Of a stretch of DNA of 40,264 bases, positions 19,627-31,890 are shown in pieces. The stretch is from Chloroflexi bacterium HGW-Chloroflexi-8 (GTDB lineage: Bacteria; Chloroflexota; Anaerolineae; Anaerolineales; Anaerolineaceae): assembly GCA_002841995.1 (NCBI GenBank), contig PHBS01000012.1, positions 1 through 40,264 on the forward strand, in the 5' to 3' direction. The position numbers and the translations under genes are program-made. Positions within the stretch are counted from its first letter, which is position 1; each line of letters begins with the position of its first letter. The notes under the pieces were generated by a model. It did not search any database. It was not told the origin of the DNA and worked only from the letters and a program-made list of their open reading frames with translations.

Positions 19627-20175
19627 ATGAACTTTGATCCTACCTTGGTAAATAATATTGTTTTGATTGGTACTGCATTCGCTGGTGCATTTTTAGCAAC
19701 TTTGTGGCTCAGCCTGATCATATGGACTTTCAGGGATATACGCAGGCGATCCAGAGATCCTTTTGCCCGGATTTTAGTTGTATTAATTGTAGCTGTTTTA
19801 TTTTTACCTGGATTGTTGATTTATGCCATATTAAGACCTGCAAAAACACTCGAAGAAGAGTATCAACAAACCTTAGAAGAAGAAGCTTTACTTCAAACGA
19901 TTGAGGATATCCCTTTATGTCCTGGATGTACTCGTAAAGTTCAACCTTTATGGATAATTTGCCCAAGCTGTCAGACAAAACTTAAAAAAAGGTGTTCGCA
20001 TTGTAATGAACTTTTAGAACTTTCCTGGAATATTTGCCCATTTTGTACTACCGAAGTTCCAGGAATGCCTGTTGAGAAAGATGAAAATGAATTTGGATCT
20101 TCGATTCCATCCTTTCATGAAAATCTGGAAACAACTGAAAATACAATGGAAAACGAAGAGGAAAACATTACGTGA
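19627..20175 (+). CDS. TM protein with double zinc ribbon
   Basis: Two N-terminal TMs, then CPGC..CPSC..CSHC..CPFC (four CxxC pairs). Confidence 0.8.
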   Translation: MNFDPTLVNNIVLIGTAFAGAFLATLWLSLIIWTFRDIRRRSRDPFARILVVLIVAVLFLPGLLIYAILRPAKTLEEEYQQTLEEEALLQTIEDIPLCPGCTRKVQPLWIICPSCQTKLKKRCSHCNELLELSWNICPFCTTEVPGMPVEKDENEFGSSIPSFHENLETTENTMENEEENIT

Positions 20176-21038: not shown

Positions 21039-21830
21039 ATGGCACATATTTTAACTCTGGTAAATCAAAAAGGTGGTGTTGGCAAAACTACCACAGCAAT
21101 AAACCTCGGTGCATATCTTGGCCATTACGGACAACGTGTCCTTCTTATTGATTTAGATCCACAGGCAAATGCTACTTCTTCATTAGGTATTGATAAACAT
21201 ACGATAAAGAATGGCACATACGAAGTTCTTATCAATAACCAACCAATTGCATCTCATGTTCTTCATAACCCAAAATTAAAAATATCTTTACTCCCCTCCT
21301 CACCTGCACTTGCGGGTGCAGATGTTGAATTAATTAATATGACAAATAGGGAAACAAGATTGCGGGATGCAATAGGTCCAGTAATTGAGAAATATGACTA
21401 TATCTTGATTGATTGTCCACCATCATTATCCATTCTAACAATCAATGGATTATTAGCAGCTAAATCGGGAATCATCATTCCAGTACAATGTGAATATCTT
21501 GCGCTAGAAGGCTTAGGTCAATTAACTGAGACCATTCAACGGGTAAAATCTGGTTTGTTCCGGGAATTAAAAGTAATGGGTGTTGTCTTAACAATGTATG
21601 ATGGAAGGACAAGACTTGCAATTGATGTAGTTAACGAAGTCCGCAAATATTTTCAAAACCAGGTTTTTCAAACAATAATCCCAAGAAGTGTACGCCTGGC
21701 TGAAGCACCTTCATATGGATTTCCAATCTCCATATATGCTCCAGAATCCACAGCTGCCAAAGCATATGCATCTCTCGCAAAAGAAGTCCTGGAAAAAGAC
21801 GGGGTTGTAATTCCGGTCAACGAAGAATGA
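21039..21830 (+). CDS. parA: ParA/Soj family ATPase
   Basis: ILTLVNQKGGVGKTTTAINLGAYLGHYGQRVLLIDLDPQANATSSLGID; DYILIDCPPSLSILTINGLLAA. Confidence 0.96.
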   Translation: MAHILTLVNQKGGVGKTTTAINLGAYLGHYGQRVLLIDLDPQANATSSLGIDKHTIKNGTYEVLINNQPIASHVLHNPKLKISLLPSSPALAGADVELINMTNRETRLRDAIGPVIEKYDYILIDCPPSLSILTINGLLAAKSGIIIPVQCEYLALEGLGQLTETIQRVKSGLFRELKVMGVVLTMYDGRTRLAIDVVNEVRKYFQNQVFQTIIPRSVRLAEAPSYGFPISIYAPESTAAKAYASLAKEVLEKDGVVIPVNEE

Positions 21831-21840
21831 GGAGTCGATT

Positions 21841-22704
21841 ATGGTAAAAAGAACTGGTTTAGGAAAAGGATTAGAGGCTCTGATTCCGGTAAATATTAGT
21901 GGAATTCAATCGATTTCATTGTCCAGCGTTCTTGAGATCCCTGTAAACGAAATTTTACCCAACCCACACCAACCTCGTACCGAGATGAATCCGGATGAAT
22001 TACAAGATTTAGCTGAATCAATTCGTGAACATGGAATCATCCAACCATTGATTATTTCACCAGGAAATAAAGAGAATGAATATTTTTTAATTGCTGGGGA
22101 ACGACGGCTACGTGCGGCAAAGATCGTCGGACTCAAGCAGGTCCCAGCAATCTTACGAAATGTTTCTGACCAGGGACAATTGGAATTGGCCTTAATTGAA
22201 AATGTACAGCGAACTGACTTGTCTCCTTTGGAAACAGCAGAAGCATATCGTCAATTGTCTGATGATTTTAACCTATCTCATGAAGAGATTGCCAAAAGAG
22301 TTGGAAAATCCAGGGTAACAATTACCAATTCCATTCGTTTATTAAAGCTTCCAGATTCCGTACGCAACGCCTTAGCTTCCGGTATCATTTCTGAAGGTCA
22401 TGCCAGAGCATTATTAGCGCTAACATCACCCCAAGCCCAATTAGCTGTTTTAGAAACCATTCTAAAATTTGATTATTCCGTACGACAAACTGAGGAATTA
22501 GTTAGAAAATATGGGGGTGAACGCAGTAAAAAATCAGAAAAAGCCCCTATCGAACCAGAAATCTCTGCATTGGAAGAGCGCATCCGTAACCAAATTGGAA
22601 TGCGCGTAAATCTTGATCATCATGGTAACAAGGGCAAAATAATCATCCATTATTATTCGAACGAAGAATTAAATCAATTTATCGATCGTTTTTTCATGGA
22701 ATAA
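21841..22704 (+). CDS. parB: ParB/Spo0J family partition protein
   Basis: GLGKGLEALIP, ILPNPHQPRTEMNPDELQDLAESIREHGIIQPLI, ERRLRAAKIVGLKQVPAI, ALIENVQRTDLSPLETAEAY. Confidence 0.97.
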   Translation: MVKRTGLGKGLEALIPVNISGIQSISLSSVLEIPVNEILPNPHQPRTEMNPDELQDLAESIREHGIIQPLIISPGNKENEYFLIAGERRLRAAKIVGLKQVPAILRNVSDQGQLELALIENVQRTDLSPLETAEAYRQLSDDFNLSHEEIAKRVGKSRVTITNSIRLLKLPDSVRNALASGIISEGHARALLALTSPQAQLAVLETILKFDYSVRQTEELVRKYGGERSKKSEKAPIEPEISALEERIRNQIGMRVNLDHHGNKGKIIIHYYSNEELNQFIDRFFME

Positions 22705-22705
22705 A

Positions 22706-24292
22706 ATGAATTCAATTCTTTATAATGCAAGAATTTATACAATGGATCAAGAAAACCCTTTTGTAGAAGCTATTGCCATACGAAATAGCAAAATAATTGC
22801 TATTGGATCTAATGAGGAAATTTTAAATCTTGCGAACGACCAGTTCCAAAAGATTAATATAGATGGTAAGACTATTCTCCCAGGATTCTCGGATTCCCAT
22901 ATTCATCTTAATTACTATTCAAAAAGTCTGACTCAGGTAGATTGCGAAACCATATCGAAAGCAGATTGTTTAGAAAGAATTAGAGCGAGAGTCAACCAAA
23001 CTGAACCTGGCAAATGGATCATCGGTCATGGTTGGAATCAAAATAATTGGCCTGAAGGTTACGGAACAATTGATGATTTGGACCAAATATCAACTGAACA
23101 CCCTATATACCTCACCGCCAAATCTTTACATGCAAGTTGGGCAAATTCAAAAGCATTAGAATTGGCTGGAATCGACCTTAATCATGAGAATCCACCTAAT
23201 GGGATTATTGGAAAAAATAATGAAGGAAATTTAAACGGCCTTCTTTTTGAATCGGCAACACAGCTGATTGAAAAAATAATAACTGCTCACTCCGTTAATC
23301 AAATTGCTCAAAATTTGGAAATTGCACAAAAAGAATTATTGAAATATGGAATTACCAGCGTCCATGATTTTGATGGTGCAGATTGCTTTTCTGCTCTTCA
23401 GAAGTTGGAAAGAGAAGCTCGTTTAAAGATTAGAGTTTTAAAATCGATCCAACTTGATAATCTTGAAGCAGCAGTTAACATCGGAATGGCAACAGGTTTT
23501 GGGTCAGATTATCTGAGAATTGGCTCAGTAAAACTTTTTGCAGATGGAGCTTTGGGACCTCAAACTGCTGCAATGATCAGTCCGTATGAAAACAGTTCAA
23601 CAAACAAAGGTGTCTTATCGCTGTCAAGTGATCAGATTTTCGATTATGGAAAATTGGCAAGTCAATCTGGAATTTCGCTGGCGATACATGCGATTGGTGA
23701 TATGGCAAATATGATGGTTCTTCAAGGCTTTGAAAGATTAAGATCTTACGAACAAGAAATGAAACTACCGCACTTAAATCACCGGATTGAACATGTTCAA
23801 ATTTTAACCAAAGAAATAGTTGGCAAATTATCGGATTTGGATTTGACAGCTTCAGTGCAACCTATCCATTTAATTTCGGATATGGAAGCCGCTGAAAAAT
23901 ACTGGGGCAGTCGTTCCATGTATGCATACCCATTCCATTCTCTTTTGATAAGTGGAACAAATATGGTATTTGGCTCAGATAGTCCAGTTGAATCCCCGAA
24001 TCCTTTTCTTGGCATATATGCTGCAACTACTCGACGTAGACTGGATGGTGCTCCCGGGGAAAACGGATGGTTCCCGGAACAAAAAATAAGCCTTTTACAA
24101 GCAATTAACGCATACACAAGAGCACCAGCCTATTTAGCGGGATGGAAGTCCTACAAAGGCCGGATTTCCCCAAATGAACAAGCTGATTTAATAGTTCTTC
24201 CTGAAGATATTTTTAATATTTCTCCTGATAAAATTAAAAACCTCCTCCCTCAAGCCACGATGGTAGCAGGTCAATGGGTGTGGCAAAAATAA
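22706..24292 (+). CDS. Amidohydrolase (YtcJ-like metal-dependent hydrolase)
   Basis: GKTILPGFSDSHIHLNYYSKSL, GSVKLFADGALGPQTAAM, HRIEHVQIL, FGSDSPVESPNPFLGIYAA. Confidence 0.92.
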   Translation: MNSILYNARIYTMDQENPFVEAIAIRNSKIIAIGSNEEILNLANDQFQKINIDGKTILPGFSDSHIHLNYYSKSLTQVDCETISKADCLERIRARVNQTEPGKWIIGHGWNQNNWPEGYGTIDDLDQISTEHPIYLTAKSLHASWANSKALELAGIDLNHENPPNGIIGKNNEGNLNGLLFESATQLIEKIITAHSVNQIAQNLEIAQKELLKYGITSVHDFDGADCFSALQKLEREARLKIRVLKSIQLDNLEAAVNIGMATGFGSDYLRIGSVKLFADGALGPQTAAMISPYENSSTNKGVLSLSSDQIFDYGKLASQSGISLAIHAIGDMANMMVLQGFERLRSYEQEMKLPHLNHRIEHVQILTKEIVGKLSDLDLTASVQPIHLISDMEAAEKYWGSRSMYAYPFHSLLISGTNMVFGSDSPVESPNPFLGIYAATTRRRLDGAPGENGWFPEQKISLLQAINAYTRAPAYLAGWKSYKGRISPNEQADLIVLPEDIFNISPDKIKNLLPQATMVAGQWVWQK

Positions 24293-24295
24293 AAA

Positions 24296-25315
24296 ATGGT
24301 TAATCCTTCTTTACAATTGACACCAGAAATATTAGTCCCGCGAATCGGTGACATCCTTGTCGATCGTGGAATGATAAGTCAGGAAAGTTTAAATAACGCC
24401 GTATTACTGCAAAAAGAGTTCGAAAAAGAGGGTAAATCACAACTTTTAGGACAAATTCTAGTTAATTTGCAATTAATTGACCAAATTACTTTGGATCAAA
24501 TCATCACTGAACAAATCATAAATTTAAAATCCGCTTTGGAAGATAGCAATCATAATCTCGAAAATCGAGTATTCGAAAGAACCAAGGAACTTGAAGCCGC
24601 ATTTGAAGAGATTAATAAATTAAGTAAAATCAAATCAAACTTAATTTCAAATATTTCTCACGAATTAAGAACCCCTATCACACACATCAAAGGATATTTA
24701 GACTTATTTGCTTCAGGTGACTTTGGACGTTTTACCGATGAACAAGCCAAGGTTATTCAGATTTTAATTGGGGCTACTGACAGGCTGGAAAAATTAATAG
24801 ATGAATTGATAATGTTTACGGTTGGTGAAAATGAAGACATCAATTTATCTTTCATTGAATTTAATATTCTTGATACTGTAAAACATACTATCAATAAATT
24901 TAAATTAAAAAATCCGGGACGTAAAATTAATTTGATTTCACCTTTGATGGATGAAATGGTTTTAGTTCGAGCTGATAAAAGAAAAATCGAATGGGTTATC
25001 GACCACCTTCTTGAAAATGCAAGCAAATTTTCAGCACCTGAATCTCCAATTTCTTTGTCTTTAGAGATTAAACAGGACTCAGTAATTTTCTCGATTCAAG
25101 ACCAGGGTATTGGAATAAGTGAAAATAAAATAACGGAAATATTCGAATCCTTTCACCAGCTTGATGGCTCCTCAACACGAAAATATGGGGGTATCGGATT
25201 AGGTTTGGCGTTAGCCCAAAAAATCCTTCTCGCGCATTCCAGTAAAATCAATGTCCACTCAGAAATTGGAGTCGGCAGCAAATTTGATTTTTCTCTCAAA
25301 AGATTGATAAAATAA
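24296..25315 (+). CDS. Soluble sensor histidine kinase with N-terminal MshEN/T2SSE_N-like tandem motif
   Basis: N-term RIGDILVDRGMISQESLNNAVLLQ ... LLGQILVNLQLIDQITLDQIITEQ; HisKA SNISHELRTPITHIKGYL; HATPase QDQGIGISENKITEIFESFHQLD..GGIGLGLALAQKIL. Confidence 0.9.
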   Translation: MVNPSLQLTPEILVPRIGDILVDRGMISQESLNNAVLLQKEFEKEGKSQLLGQILVNLQLIDQITLDQIITEQIINLKSALEDSNHNLENRVFERTKELEAAFEEINKLSKIKSNLISNISHELRTPITHIKGYLDLFASGDFGRFTDEQAKVIQILIGATDRLEKLIDELIMFTVGENEDINLSFIEFNILDTVKHTINKFKLKNPGRKINLISPLMDEMVLVRADKRKIEWVIDHLLENASKFSAPESPISLSLEIKQDSVIFSIQDQGIGISENKITEIFESFHQLDGSSTRKYGGIGLGLALAQKILLAHSSKINVHSEIGVGSKFDFSLKRLIK

Positions 25316-25318
25316 GAT

Positions 25319-26509
25319 ATGACTGAATCGCTTCAACCTATCGAACCCCAGACTCTTTATTCTCTAAGCCAAATTTGTTGGACAGCATCGAATTGGAAAT
25401 CAGCTCTAGATGAAATTGTGACTAAAATCCGTCCCTTTTTTATCTTTGACAATATTGCTGTTTATTTATCAGATAAATCCGAGTCTAATCTGGAAGTATC
25501 GTATGCGAAAGCGACCGGGAGGGGGAAATCCAAAGAAGCTGATGTAGCCTGGGGAGAGAGTATTTCTTTAGAAGCAATTCGGCAAAGTAAGACTATCCTT
25601 CAAATCCCGGAAGATTCAGAAATTGAGCGGTTCAACCGGCCATTCCTTTTAGGGATTCCTTTACAATCCAGAAACTCAAAATTTGGAGTAGTGGTCTTTA
25701 TCAGGTTTGGTAGCCCGGAATTTTCACAAGAACAAATTAATTTTGCTGAATTTATGGTTCATCAAATCTCTTCCATGATTTTGAGACAAGAACATGAAAA
25801 AATGATTGAAAAATTGGAAGATCATATCAAAACGTTACAAATCCAGGAAGATTTTATATCTACACTTTCACATGAGCTTAAAAACCCTATAGGTTTTATA
25901 AAAGGGTACACAACAACGTTGTTAAGAAAAGATACTTCCTGGGATCGTGAGACTCAGTTCGAATTTTTGAATATTATTGACCAAGAAACCGACCGGTTAA
26001 AGGATTTAATCGATAATTTATTGGATTCATCAAAACTACAATCCGGTAAAGCAAATCTGAATTTTCAAGTCCTTCGTTTGGATGCTTTATTAAATGATGT
26101 AATTTCTCATTCACGAATGGTTCATCCAGATTTGGAAATCTATCTGGACATTCGACAGGAACTACCCAACTTACAAGGTGATCCCCGCAGACTTAAACAG
26201 GTATTTGATAATTTAATTTCAAATTCTTATAAATACGCTCCTGGTACAGTCATTAAGATACGGGTTTACAAAGAACAATCAGGTATTTCAATAGATTTTC
26301 GAGACTTTGGTCCTGGGATCCCCACTGCCGAATTGGAAAAGGTTTTCGATCGATTTTATCGAATTGAAAAATCAGTCAGTGAAATACATGGCTCAGGATT
26401 GGGACTCTTTATTTGCAAAAAAATTATTGAGGCTCATCAAGGACAAATTAGCGCTACATCAATTTTAGGAAAAGGGACAACTATTCATATTTTCTTACCG
26501 ATCACGTAA
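25319..26509 (+). CDS. GAF domain sensor histidine kinase (no TM)
   Basis: GAF-like N-terminus; STLSHELKNPIGFIKGYTTTLL; DFGPGIPTAELEKVFDRFYRIEKSVSEIHGSGLGLFICKKIIEAH. Confidence 0.92.
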   Translation: MTESLQPIEPQTLYSLSQICWTASNWKSALDEIVTKIRPFFIFDNIAVYLSDKSESNLEVSYAKATGRGKSKEADVAWGESISLEAIRQSKTILQIPEDSEIERFNRPFLLGIPLQSRNSKFGVVVFIRFGSPEFSQEQINFAEFMVHQISSMILRQEHEKMIEKLEDHIKTLQIQEDFISTLSHELKNPIGFIKGYTTTLLRKDTSWDRETQFEFLNIIDQETDRLKDLIDNLLDSSKLQSGKANLNFQVLRLDALLNDVISHSRMVHPDLEIYLDIRQELPNLQGDPRRLKQVFDNLISNSYKYAPGTVIKIRVYKEQSGISIDFRDFGPGIPTAELEKVFDRFYRIEKSVSEIHGSGLGLFICKKIIEAHQGQISATSILGKGTTIHIFLPIT

Positions 26510-26541
26510 CAACGTATATGAATAAAAGATTGGAGAAACGA

Positions 26542-27246
26542 ATGTCAAGAAATTTAAGAATCCTGATTGTAGATGATGAACAACTTTATCGTCATCTCGT
26601 AAAAGTGAATCTTGAATCTGAGGGTTATGAAGTCATCACAGCAACTAATGGGGAAGAGTGCTTAGAAATCGTATCCAATAAACATCCGGATTTGGTCATA
26701 CTTGATGTAATGATGCCCAAATTGGATGGTTTTTCTGCCCTTGATAGAATTCGTCAATTTAGTCAGGTCCCGATTATTATGTTAACTGGGAAAAATGAAG
26801 AACAGGATCGAGTAAGAGGATTAAATTCAGGAGCTGATGATTATGTGTCCAAGCCATTTTCAGCAACAGAACTGATTGCGCGTGTAAAAGCAGTCTTGCG
26901 ACGTTCTGCAAATGAAGATCAAGGTATTTCAAACCGGTATTTTACGCATGATGATCTAAAAATTGATTTGGCTCGTGCAGAAGTATGGCGTGAAGATACA
27001 CCGATATATCTATCAGCAACAGAATATAAGTTATTGATTCAATTTGCACACAATGTGGGAAAAGTCATGGCTGCAGAAGAACTATTAAGTGCAATTTGGG
27101 GACCTCAATATCGCGATGACAAAGAAATCCTTTGGGTGAGTATTGCCCGATTGAGACAAAAACTCGAAAAAGACCCTCATACTCCCAAACATATTGTCAC
27201 TAGATCGGGTTTGGGTTATTTAATGCCGCCTAACGAACCCAATTAA
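26542..27246 (+). CDS. OmpR/PhoB-family response regulator
   Basis: ILIVDDEQLYRHLVKVNLESEGYEV, DLVILDVMMPKLDG, PIIMLTGKN, SGADDYVSKPFS, winged-helix LSATEYKLLIQF..WVSIARLRQKLEKDPHTPKHIVTRSGLGYLM. SD GGAG supports 26542 as start. Confidence 0.95.
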   Translation: MSRNLRILIVDDEQLYRHLVKVNLESEGYEVITATNGEECLEIVSNKHPDLVILDVMMPKLDGFSALDRIRQFSQVPIIMLTGKNEEQDRVRGLNSGADDYVSKPFSATELIARVKAVLRRSANEDQGISNRYFTHDDLKIDLARAEVWREDTPIYLSATEYKLLIQFAHNVGKVMAAEELLSAIWGPQYRDDKEILWVSIARLRQKLEKDPHTPKHIVTRSGLGYLMPPNEPN

Positions 27247-27273: not shown

Positions 27274-27570
27274 ATGGTTACTCAATACGACGAAAAAGGT
27301 AAGATTTTTACTTCGATAATCACCAAAAAACCTGCTGAAGTTATAATTTATACACTTCTCCACAAAATAACAGGCGTTGTTCATTATCGACCCGATAACC
27401 GATTAATTGATGAGCTTAATTCGACTAATCATTTTTTAGCCGTAACGAATGGAAAAGTATATGATCAAAACAACAACTTGTTATATCATTCAGATTTCAT
27501 AACGATAAATACAAGCCAAATAATTTGGGTAATTCCTTTTGATGAGTTAAAACAGGATCAGGTTGAATGA
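27274..27570 (+). CDS. Small uncharacterised protein (98 aa, predicted beta-rich)
   Basis: SD AGGAGAGG; KGKIFTSIITKKPAEVIIYTLLHKITGVVHYRPDNRLIDELNSTNHFLAVTNGKVYD...; 4-nt ATGA overlap with the following CpaF gene. Confidence 0.8.
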   Translation: MVTQYDEKGKIFTSIITKKPAEVIIYTLLHKITGVVHYRPDNRLIDELNSTNHFLAVTNGKVYDQNNNLLYHSDFITINTSQIIWVIPFDELKQDQVE

Positions 27571-28886
27571 CAAACTCCAATTCAGTTTCAATTCAATCTC
27601 CAGAGATTGTAAAATTAAAACAACATCTTGGAATGATCATCTATCGAGAATTAGAAGAGAAAAAACCTCCCTTAAAGGATAGAGAAGATTTTGTTAAAAA
27701 GATACTGGCTCAAGCATACGATTCATTAAGTATCAATTTAGCTCCTACTTTAAAAGAACAACTTTTTAGAGATATTTTAGATGAAATCTTAGGTTTTGGA
27801 CCGCTTCAACCACTCCTTGAAGACCCATCAATTAGTGAAGTGATGGTAAATGGTCCAAACAGTGTGTACATAGAACAAAAAGGAAAGCTCAAGAAAACAA
27901 ACGTTCGATTCGATAATGATGAAGCAGTCATGCATTTGATCGAAAAAATTATCTTACCATTGGGTAGAAGAATTGATTCGGATACTCCAACAGTTGATGC
28001 CCGGTTACCTGATGGTTCGCGCGTAAATGCGATTATTCCTCCTGTCGCAGTTGATGGACCTTCAATCACAATTCGAAAATTCGAAAAAGGCCGTCTTTCG
28101 ATCGATCAACTCATTGAATACAATTCTATTACCAGGAATATGGCTAACCTGGTTCAAGCTTGTGTTATTTCAAGACTAAATATCATTATTTCCGGTGGAA
28201 CTGGATCGGGTAAAACGACATTATTAAATGTACTTTCGAGTTTTATTCCTGAAGATGAAAGAATAGTGACAATTGAAGACGCAGCAGAATTACGTTTACA
28301 ACAGGATCATATTGTCCGTCTCGAGACAAAATCTCCTGATCTTGAAGGTAAACATGCAGTAACCATTCGTGATCTCGTCAGAAATTCATTGCGCATGAGA
28401 CCTGATCGAATTGTTGTTGGTGAGGTTCGAGGAGGAGAAGCTCTTGATATGTTACAAGCCATGAATACGGGCCATGATGGTTCACTAACCACATTACATG
28501 CTAACTCACCTCGTGATGCCCTTTCAAGACTGGAAACAATGAGTCTTATGGCTGGTATGGAACTCCCTTTAAAAGTAATTAGGGAGCAAATCGCTAGTGC
28601 AATTGATTTGATAATCCAACAATCAAGAATGAAAGATGGAAGTCGAAAAGTCACCTCAGTGACTGAGGTCTCGGGTATGGAAGGTGACACAATCGTCATG
28701 ACAGAGATATTTAAATTTGAATACACAGGTATATCACCAGAAGGTGAAGTCTTGGGGAGTCTGTTGCCAACAGGAATTCGCCCATTTTTTACCCAGCGAT
28801 TAGAACAAAATGGATTCAAATTAGGTCCAGAGGTGTTTGGTGCTAATCTTGCTCAAATGTTATCAGGATCACGTACGAGAAGATAA
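27567..28886 (+). CDS. CpaF/TadA-family secretion ATPase
   Basis: [106 protein letters not shown]. Confidence 0.95.
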
Positions 28887-31151: not shown

Positions 31152-31832
31152 ATGGGAAAAAGGCAGGAAATTAAGAACAAAAGGCAACAAAAAGTAAAAA
31201 AACAACAAATCACTGTATTAATCATTGTTATTGGATTAGCACTTCTTATTTCAGGTTTTGTGATTTATCAATCGATTAAACCAGTTGGAGATATTAAAGC
31301 TGTCGAACCTCGAAATCATCCTCAGGCAGATGGTCTTGCCTTGGGAGATCCTACCGCGAAGATTGTTGTTGAAGAATTCTCAGACTTTCAATGTGTTGCA
31401 TGTTTTCGATTTTGGCAAAATAGCGAAACAGAATTCATTGAAAAATATGTTTCCACAGGAGATGTCTATTTCAAATACTCCCCATTTAGTTTCATCGGAG
31501 AGGAGTCATTTCAAGCTTCGGAGGCAGCATTTTGCGCCAATGACCAGGGAAAATTTTGGGAATATCACGACATGCTTTTTGGTAATTGGACCGGAGAAAA
31601 TATTGGCAATTTCAACAATAGTCGGCTGATTGCGTTTGCTAAATCGATAGGACTTAATGAAGGTGACTTTAAATCATGTCTTAATAGTAATAAATATGAT
31701 TCTGAAGTCAAACAAAGAAACGTTTTTGGAAATCAAAATAATGTAAGCGCAACACCAAGTTTTATTGTCAATGGACAACTAGTCTATTCAGACACATTGT
31801 TCTCTACGATTGATGGGTTATTAGCAAAATAA
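31152..31832 (+). CDS. DsbA/BdbD-like membrane-anchored thiol-disulfide oxidoreductase
   Basis: N-terminal basic coil + TM; VEEFSDFQCVACFRFW (CxxC), GVSATPSF-like NVSATPSFIVNGQLV. Confidence 0.9.
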   Translation: MGKRQEIKNKRQQKVKKQQITVLIIVIGLALLISGFVIYQSIKPVGDIKAVEPRNHPQADGLALGDPTAKIVVEEFSDFQCVACFRFWQNSETEFIEKYVSTGDVYFKYSPFSFIGEESFQASEAAFCANDQGKFWEYHDMLFGNWTGENIGNFNNSRLIAFAKSIGLNEGDFKSCLNSNKYDSEVKQRNVFGNQNNVSATPSFIVNGQLVYSDTLFSTIDGLLAK

Positions 31833-31850
31833 ATCGGTTATTGTATTATT

Positions 31851-31884
31851 AATGACACGAAATCGGATTTGATTTCGTGTCATT
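31851..31884. terminator. Bidirectional stem-loop terminator
   Basis: AATGACACGAAATC-ggattt-GATTTCGTGTCATT, 14-bp perfect inverted repeat between convergent genes. Confidence 0.8.
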
Positions 31885-31890
31885 ATTTTA

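Follow-up and report, generated by a model that had tools for sequence, protein, structure and literature searches.

A histidine kinase encoded by Chloroflexi bacterium HGW-Chloroflexi-8 carries, in front of a canonical catalytic core, a predicted MshEN_N domain, or GSPII N-subdomain, a module studied so far in pilus and secretion ATPases. We consider it probable that the protein is a cytosolic, dimeric kinase/phosphatase whose MshEN_N domain binds c-di-GMP and thereby gates its activity. The gene lies in a stretch of 40,264 nucleotides (contig PHBS01000012.1), hereafter the window, and its parts are as follows.

24296..25315, + strand: MshEN_N-HisKA-HATPase histidine kinase, 339 aa, ATG start (ORF call, domain search, full-length AlphaFold model)
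24317..24340, + strand: N-terminal cap LTPEILVP, residues 8-15 (ortholog conservation, AlphaFold)
24341..24412, + strand: MshEN motif I, RIGDILVDRGMISQESLNNAVLLQ, residues 16-39 (PDB sequence and profile search, conservation, pattern scan)
24413..24442, + strand: spacer of 10 residues with a conserved G46 (ortholog alignment)
24443..24514, + strand: MshEN motif II, LLGQILVNLQLIDQITLDQIITEQ, residues 50-73 (profile search, conservation, Foldseek, pattern scan)
24482..24712, + strand: single predicted helix, residues 63-139 (full-length AlphaFold, DSSP H63-139; heptad register)
24632..24820, + strand: HisKA (DHp), residues 113-175 (domain match, E 2.6e-14)
24974..25300, + strand: HATPase_c, residues 227-335 (domain match, E 4.3e-22)

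The catalytic part is that of a HisKA-type kinase, with HisKA and HATPase_c domains that contain the H, N, G1 and G2 boxes. The phospho-acceptor H122 lies in the SHELRTP box, and S121-P127 are invariant in 48 sequences, as are N241, D269/G271/G273 and G299/G301/G303 of HATPase_c. The threonine of HELRT is expected for phosphatase activity in HisKA kinases. The sequence-only reading had described two 24-residue MshEN-like units followed by a coiled coil and a HisKA/HATPase core, without a transmembrane segment. The motif scan and the domain matches agree with this layout, and by eye the kinase has no hydrophobic stretch of membrane-helix length.

The motif scan used the pattern (R/K/L)LGxx(LVI)(LVI)xxG(LVI)(LVI)xxxxLxxxLxxQ, which has 11 fixed positions and relaxes the MshEN pattern by accepting R/K/L at position 1 and L/I/V at positions 2 and 21. 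Both units score 10 of the 11 positions. The highest score of any other 24-mer in the six frames of the 40-kb window is 8, and 2000 shuffled versions of the kinase protein never gave 10. A single-sequence search of the PDB returned ten chains at E<=10, every one of them an MshEN domain, including PilF of Thermus (6e-7), MshE of Vibrio cholerae (0.019) and PilB (0.56). With a family profile built from 25 orthologous N-termini, the E-values of these three proteins were 3.4e-14, 1.9e-7 and 5.5e-7, respectively; the first 14 chains were all MshEN proteins, and stathmin coiled coils came next at E>=0.098.

The Pfam MshEN model (PF05157, threshold 23.1 bits) matched neither the kinase nor anything else in the whole genome. 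This model describes the C-terminal alpha/beta subdomain, MshEN_C, which is entirely absent from the kinase; in two MshEN-glycosyltransferases of the same class (L128 and L132), it matches residues 103-188 and 97-183, and the tandem motif precedes the match. The Pfam check that had been proposed for the homology was therefore negative but uninformative, because PF05157 covers the other subdomain. The isolated MshEN_N of V. cholerae still binds c-di-GMP, at 350 nM, as quoted in PMC11731258. As a side observation, Pfam annotation misses proteins that have only the c-di-GMP-binding half of MshEN.

An AlphaFold2 model of the N-terminal domain, computed with 81 sequences (mean pLDDT 81), is all helical, with helices at residues 10-13, 17-23, 29-44, 51-57 and 63-114. 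The top Foldseek match in the PDB is c-di-GMP-bound MshE (5htl; probability 1.00, rmsd 1.3 A over 61 columns), followed by PilF GSPII-B with c-di-GMP (probability 0.96), and the remaining matches are at 0.13 or below. The Foldseek E-values of these two, 0.055 and 0.26, are modest because the domain is short (~58 residues). The superposition suggested in the sequence-only reading thus gives a predicted four-helix bundle whose paired MshEN half-sites match those of 5htl. The proposed MshEN homology is supported by the predicted fold, by the PDB sequence and profile searches and by the conservation of the contact residues.

In the full-length AlphaFold model, one helix extends from residue 63 to residue 139, spanning the coiled coil and ending beyond H122. 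It would thus comprise MshEN helix 4, the dimer coiled coil and the first DHp helix. Conservation reveals an unbroken heptad a/d stripe from D67 to L116 (67, 71, 74, 78, 81, 85, 88, 92, 95, 99, 102, 106, 109, 113 and 116), with a best period of 3.55 (permutation p <1/2000). Because this stripe runs unbroken from D67, the start of the dimer coiled coil appears to lie within the fourth MshEN helix. The ligand-contact positions L66, I70 and Q73 thus seem to lie beside the dimer face of the helix that bears H122.

Orthologs with the whole N-terminal domain are found in 70 of the 147 genomes of the same family, in which three further weak matches fall mostly within the coiled coil, and also in sister families of the order. 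The genome collection yielded 169 confirmed ortholog stretches; among the best 80 of the 169, all named ones belong to Chloroflexota, mostly Anaerolineae, including Ornatilinea, Leptolinea, Longilinea and Anaerolinea. The ligand-contact residues were taken from the 5HTL paper (PMC5013675) and correspond to R16, I17, G18, L32, V36 and Q39 in motif I, and to L50, L51, G52, L66, I70 and Q73 in motif II. Conservation within residues 16-73 is higher at the 14 contact and leucine-cluster positions (3.41 bits) than at the remaining 44 (2.07 bits; Mann-Whitney p 6e-6). All 81 sequences have R16, G18, L32 and G52; Q39 occurs in 79/81 and Q73 in 77/81. The conservation of R16, Q39 and Q73 argues for a ligand, because no function of these residues within the helix core is apparent. 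In place of Leu, V36 is specific to the window kinase, and V or I at position 70 is found family-wide. P10, E11, L13, V14, D67 and T71 show little or no variation and yet lie outside the MshEN consensus; another ligand or partner is therefore possible.

Motif II had been described as having lost the R and the G. Both are indeed absent. The missing Arg does not reflect a recent decay of the window copy but is a fixed feature of the family, since unit 2 begins with Leu in 72/81 orthologs and with Arg in 2/81; the G position in question (Q59 in the window kinase) is Gly in 29/81. The description also understated the case: PilF GSPII-B, whose two motifs start with Lys and Leu, respectively, binds c-di-GMP at 6 nM, and the extended binding consensus derived from it, (R/K/L)LG..., includes Leu (PMC11731258). 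The spacer of 10 residues (71/81 orthologs; 11 residues in 8/81) differs from the 5-residue spacer of MshE. Five residues are probably not a defining trait of MshEN, because PilF GSPII-C and the PilB of 5tsg have spacers of ~7, counted from the profile alignments. To our knowledge, no tested c-di-GMP binder has a spacer of 10.

The segment just before motif I is also conserved, with P10, E11, L13 and V14 of the cap invariant among the orthologs and P15 present in 78/81. In the AlphaFold model the cap forms a short helix, then breaks directly before motif I. In apo PilF GSPII-B, an extra turn of helix 1 obstructs the site; the L166G substitution, just before motif I, shortens this helix and improves the Kd to 3 nM. 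In the non-binder PilF GSPII-A, an N-cap locks the blocking helix turn (PMC12002112). The kinase family has a Pro, P15, at the place of PilF L166, and both models break the helix there, from which we infer that the pocket may be held open by P15.

The host genome contains at least 19 GGDEF matches and one PilZ match; no other MshEN-type protein or motif was found in it. In the family, the kinase is present in 70 of 103 GGDEF-positive genomes and in none of 44 GGDEF-negative ones (Fisher p 1e-16). This co-occurrence is consistent with a c-di-GMP ligand but is no independent proof of it, because the GGDEF-free genomes cluster in a few genera.

Other readings of the N-terminal domain were considered. 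The bundle might bind no nucleotide and serve as a docking or dimerisation module, much as the GspE/XpsE N-domain attaches to a membrane partner, with the kinase being set by a protein partner. XpsE is indeed a case in which c-di-GMP binding was lost and the fold kept (PMC5013675), and the family-specific invariant residues outside the contacts, like the long spacer of 10 residues, would fit such a role. However, the residues that contact only the ligand, Q39, Q73 and R16, are retained in 77-81 of 81 orthologs, whereas known non-binders have altered sites: XpsE differs at G11, R38, G40, L54, L58 and Q61 (PMC5013675), and PilF GSPII-A has a motif I without Gln and a motif II that scores only 7/11. 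We regard a purely structural role as unlikely, if still the most credible of the alternatives. That the domain binds cGAMP or another related cyclic dinucleotide instead of c-di-GMP appears improbable. MshE binds cGAMP weakly, at 0.33 mM (PMC5013675), and there are additional invariant residues near the site (D67, T71 and the cap, residues 8-15) that might accommodate a different ligand. Against this, the two glycines that in MshE read the guanine edge through their backbone, here G18 and G52, are both invariant, and all 70 kinase-bearing genomes of the family encode GGDEF proteins, with the kinase missing wherever GGDEF is, although these absences cluster by genus.

A coincidental resemblance to MshEN, the N-terminus being a DUF4388/PATAN-type domain or a plain coiled coil, is very hard to sustain. 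All 25 N-termini weakly match Pfam DUF4388, with a best E-value of 1.3e-5, but the window kinase (E 0.008) is below the cut-off, at 16.6 bits vs 25 required, and its match is confined to unit 2, where it spans 28 of the 122 profile positions. The DUF4388 reading leaves unit 1 and the tandem order unexplained, the model is all helical, and the profile matches in the PDB are MshEN domains; the PDB profile search and Foldseek largely refute this identity.

A further alternative concerns the target of the kinase rather than its sensor, namely that the sensor binds c-di-GMP but the kinase acts mainly in connection with a nearby T2SSE ATPase, in pilus regulation. The genes relevant to this question all lie in the same co-directional run.

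21039-21830, + strand: ParA (upstream of the kinase)
21841-22704, + strand: ParB (upstream of the kinase)
22706-24292, + strand: amidohydrolase, named by eye from the sequence (upstream of the kinase)
25319..26509, + strand: GAF-HisKA-HATPase histidine kinase, adjacent partner (domain search; 66/70 loci)
26518..27246, + strand: OmpR-type response regulator, adjacent partner (66/70 loci)
27274..27570, + strand: DUF6812 protein, travels with the ATPase gene (gene-order comparison)
27567..28886, + strand: CpaF-like T2SSE ATPase without MshEN, apparently an orphan (in 53/67 loci only)

The conserved order is zinc ribbon - PfkB - ParA - ParB - amidohydrolase upstream of the kinase, and GAF kinase - OmpR-type regulator - DUF6812 - T2SSE - HTH - TPR - GNAT downstream of it. 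Counting only loci with enough contig, the HTH gene is present in 59/64, ParB in 55/64 and the amidohydrolase in 43/67. As had been noted from the sequence, the T2SSE ATPase is encoded four genes downstream and is devoid of MshEN. A link between it and the kinase could be argued from its presence in the same run in 53/67 loci and from MshEN being typical of pilus motors. Nevertheless, the T2SSE gene is missing in 14/67 loci, most of which retain the GAF kinase, the regulator and the HTH gene. The genome has a separate CpaF-like ATPase gene that adjoins two T2SSF genes in what looks like an ordinary Tad locus, and for this reason the window ATPase looks like an orphan. Gene order thus gives no support to the ATPase as the main partner, the link hinted at in the sequence-only reading is weak, and we hold a pilus-related main role to be rather doubtful. 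Both this kinase and the GAF kinase likely have the OmpR-type regulator as their output.

The neighbourhood has other features of its own. The DUF6812 and T2SSE genes (27274-28886) behave as one unit, being nearly always present or absent together. The ParA-ParB pair (21039-22704), with full ParB domains, accompanies the signalling genes throughout the group, yet a consensus search of the window around the ParAB genes turned up no canonical parS with up to 3 mismatches. A promoter and terminator scan gave a number of candidates not clearly above that of shuffles. There is a strong terminator-like hairpin at 31850-31885, with 16 pairs and a T tail, after a DsbA-like gene (31152-31832).

Returning to the c-di-GMP-gated kinase, we infer its ligand, stoichiometry, coupling and target as follows. 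The four-helix bundle of MshEN_N would bind one c-di-GMP per protomer, with motifs I and II holding one guanine each and Q39 and Q73 holding the ribose-phosphate. Because helix 4, which bears contacts, runs unbroken to H122 in the model, binding might shift or rotate the continuous helix made of helix 4, the coiled coil and the DHp helix. Such a shift would change the kinase/phosphatase balance towards the OmpR-type regulator two genes downstream, on which the GAF kinase would also act. We lean, with less assurance, towards extending this view to the Anaerolineae kinases across the order, which would be c-di-GMP-gated enzymes with an MshEN_N without C-subdomain, a proline-opened pocket and a single helix from the contacts to the His.

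The closest known systems include MshEN ATPases and other histidine kinases. The kinase shares with MshE of V. cholerae (PDB 5HTL) the tandem 24-residue motifs, the four-helix bundle, the broken helix 1 before motif I and all guanine and phosphate contact positions. It differs by its spacer (10 residues vs 5), the lack of MshEN_C and a motif II that starts with Leu rather than Arg, and its output is a histidine kinase instead of an ATPase. With PilF GSPII-B of Thermus thermophilus (PDB 8PFA and others), it has in common the Leu at position 1 of motif II and the two Gln; helix 1 must break for binding in PilF, and the kinase family has a Pro there. In contrast, PilF GSPII-B has a C-subdomain, a Lys at position 1 of motif I and a shorter spacer. 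In MshEN-CheA fusions, which Wang et al. 2016 list and which were observed here as well, MshEN likewise directly precedes the kinase dimerisation helix, but CheA possesses Hpt and further chemotaxis-kinase parts, and one of the fusions observed here, L164, lacks the Gln of unit 2. CckA, ShkA, RavS, SgmT and PdtaS are histidine kinases set by c-di-GMP, as proposed here; CckA, ShkA and RavS bind it via catalytic, PAS or pseudo-receiver domains, whereas the putative binding domain of the present kinase is MshEN.

Reported MshEN fusions comprise REC, HD-GYP, CheA, CheX, cyclase and Ser/Thr kinase, and canonical HisKA is not named in the main text of that report (PMC5013675). We found no description of an MshEN-HisKA kinase in the openly accessible literature searched, and neither the c-di-GMP receptor reviews nor the kinase-sensing reviews consulted mention an MshEN-type kinase. 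Thus, the MshEN domain, its CheA fusion and canonical kinases that respond to c-di-GMP through other binding sites are already known, and the MshEN_N-HisKA combination, as deduced from sequence, appears undescribed in that literature. If the proposal is correct, a short soluble kinase with its sensor one helix away from the active His would make a simple system in which to measure the switching of a two-component kinase by a second messenger. It would also give Anaerolineae a testable c-di-GMP receptor, in a host with far more GGDEF than PilZ matches.

Related architectures were observed in other genomes. Four CheA ORFs of the same family, L164 (1454-3601, - strand), L165, L166 and L167, have an MshEN pair directly before the P3 helix, and the second Gln of L164 is replaced by Leu. 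Small proteins of other Chloroflexota (L168:439-1068, L169:485-1231 and L172:390-1166, all on the - strand) have one or two MshEN pairs and no kinase; they have an apparent TPR-like N-terminal half and a similar spacer of ~10 residues, exactly 10 in L168 and L169. In a more distant family of the order, a kinase (L171:339-1523, - strand) has a zinc-ribbon-like segment in front, and its unit 2 has RVG. The window contains a separate double-zinc-ribbon gene (19627-20175) in the gene run of the kinase.
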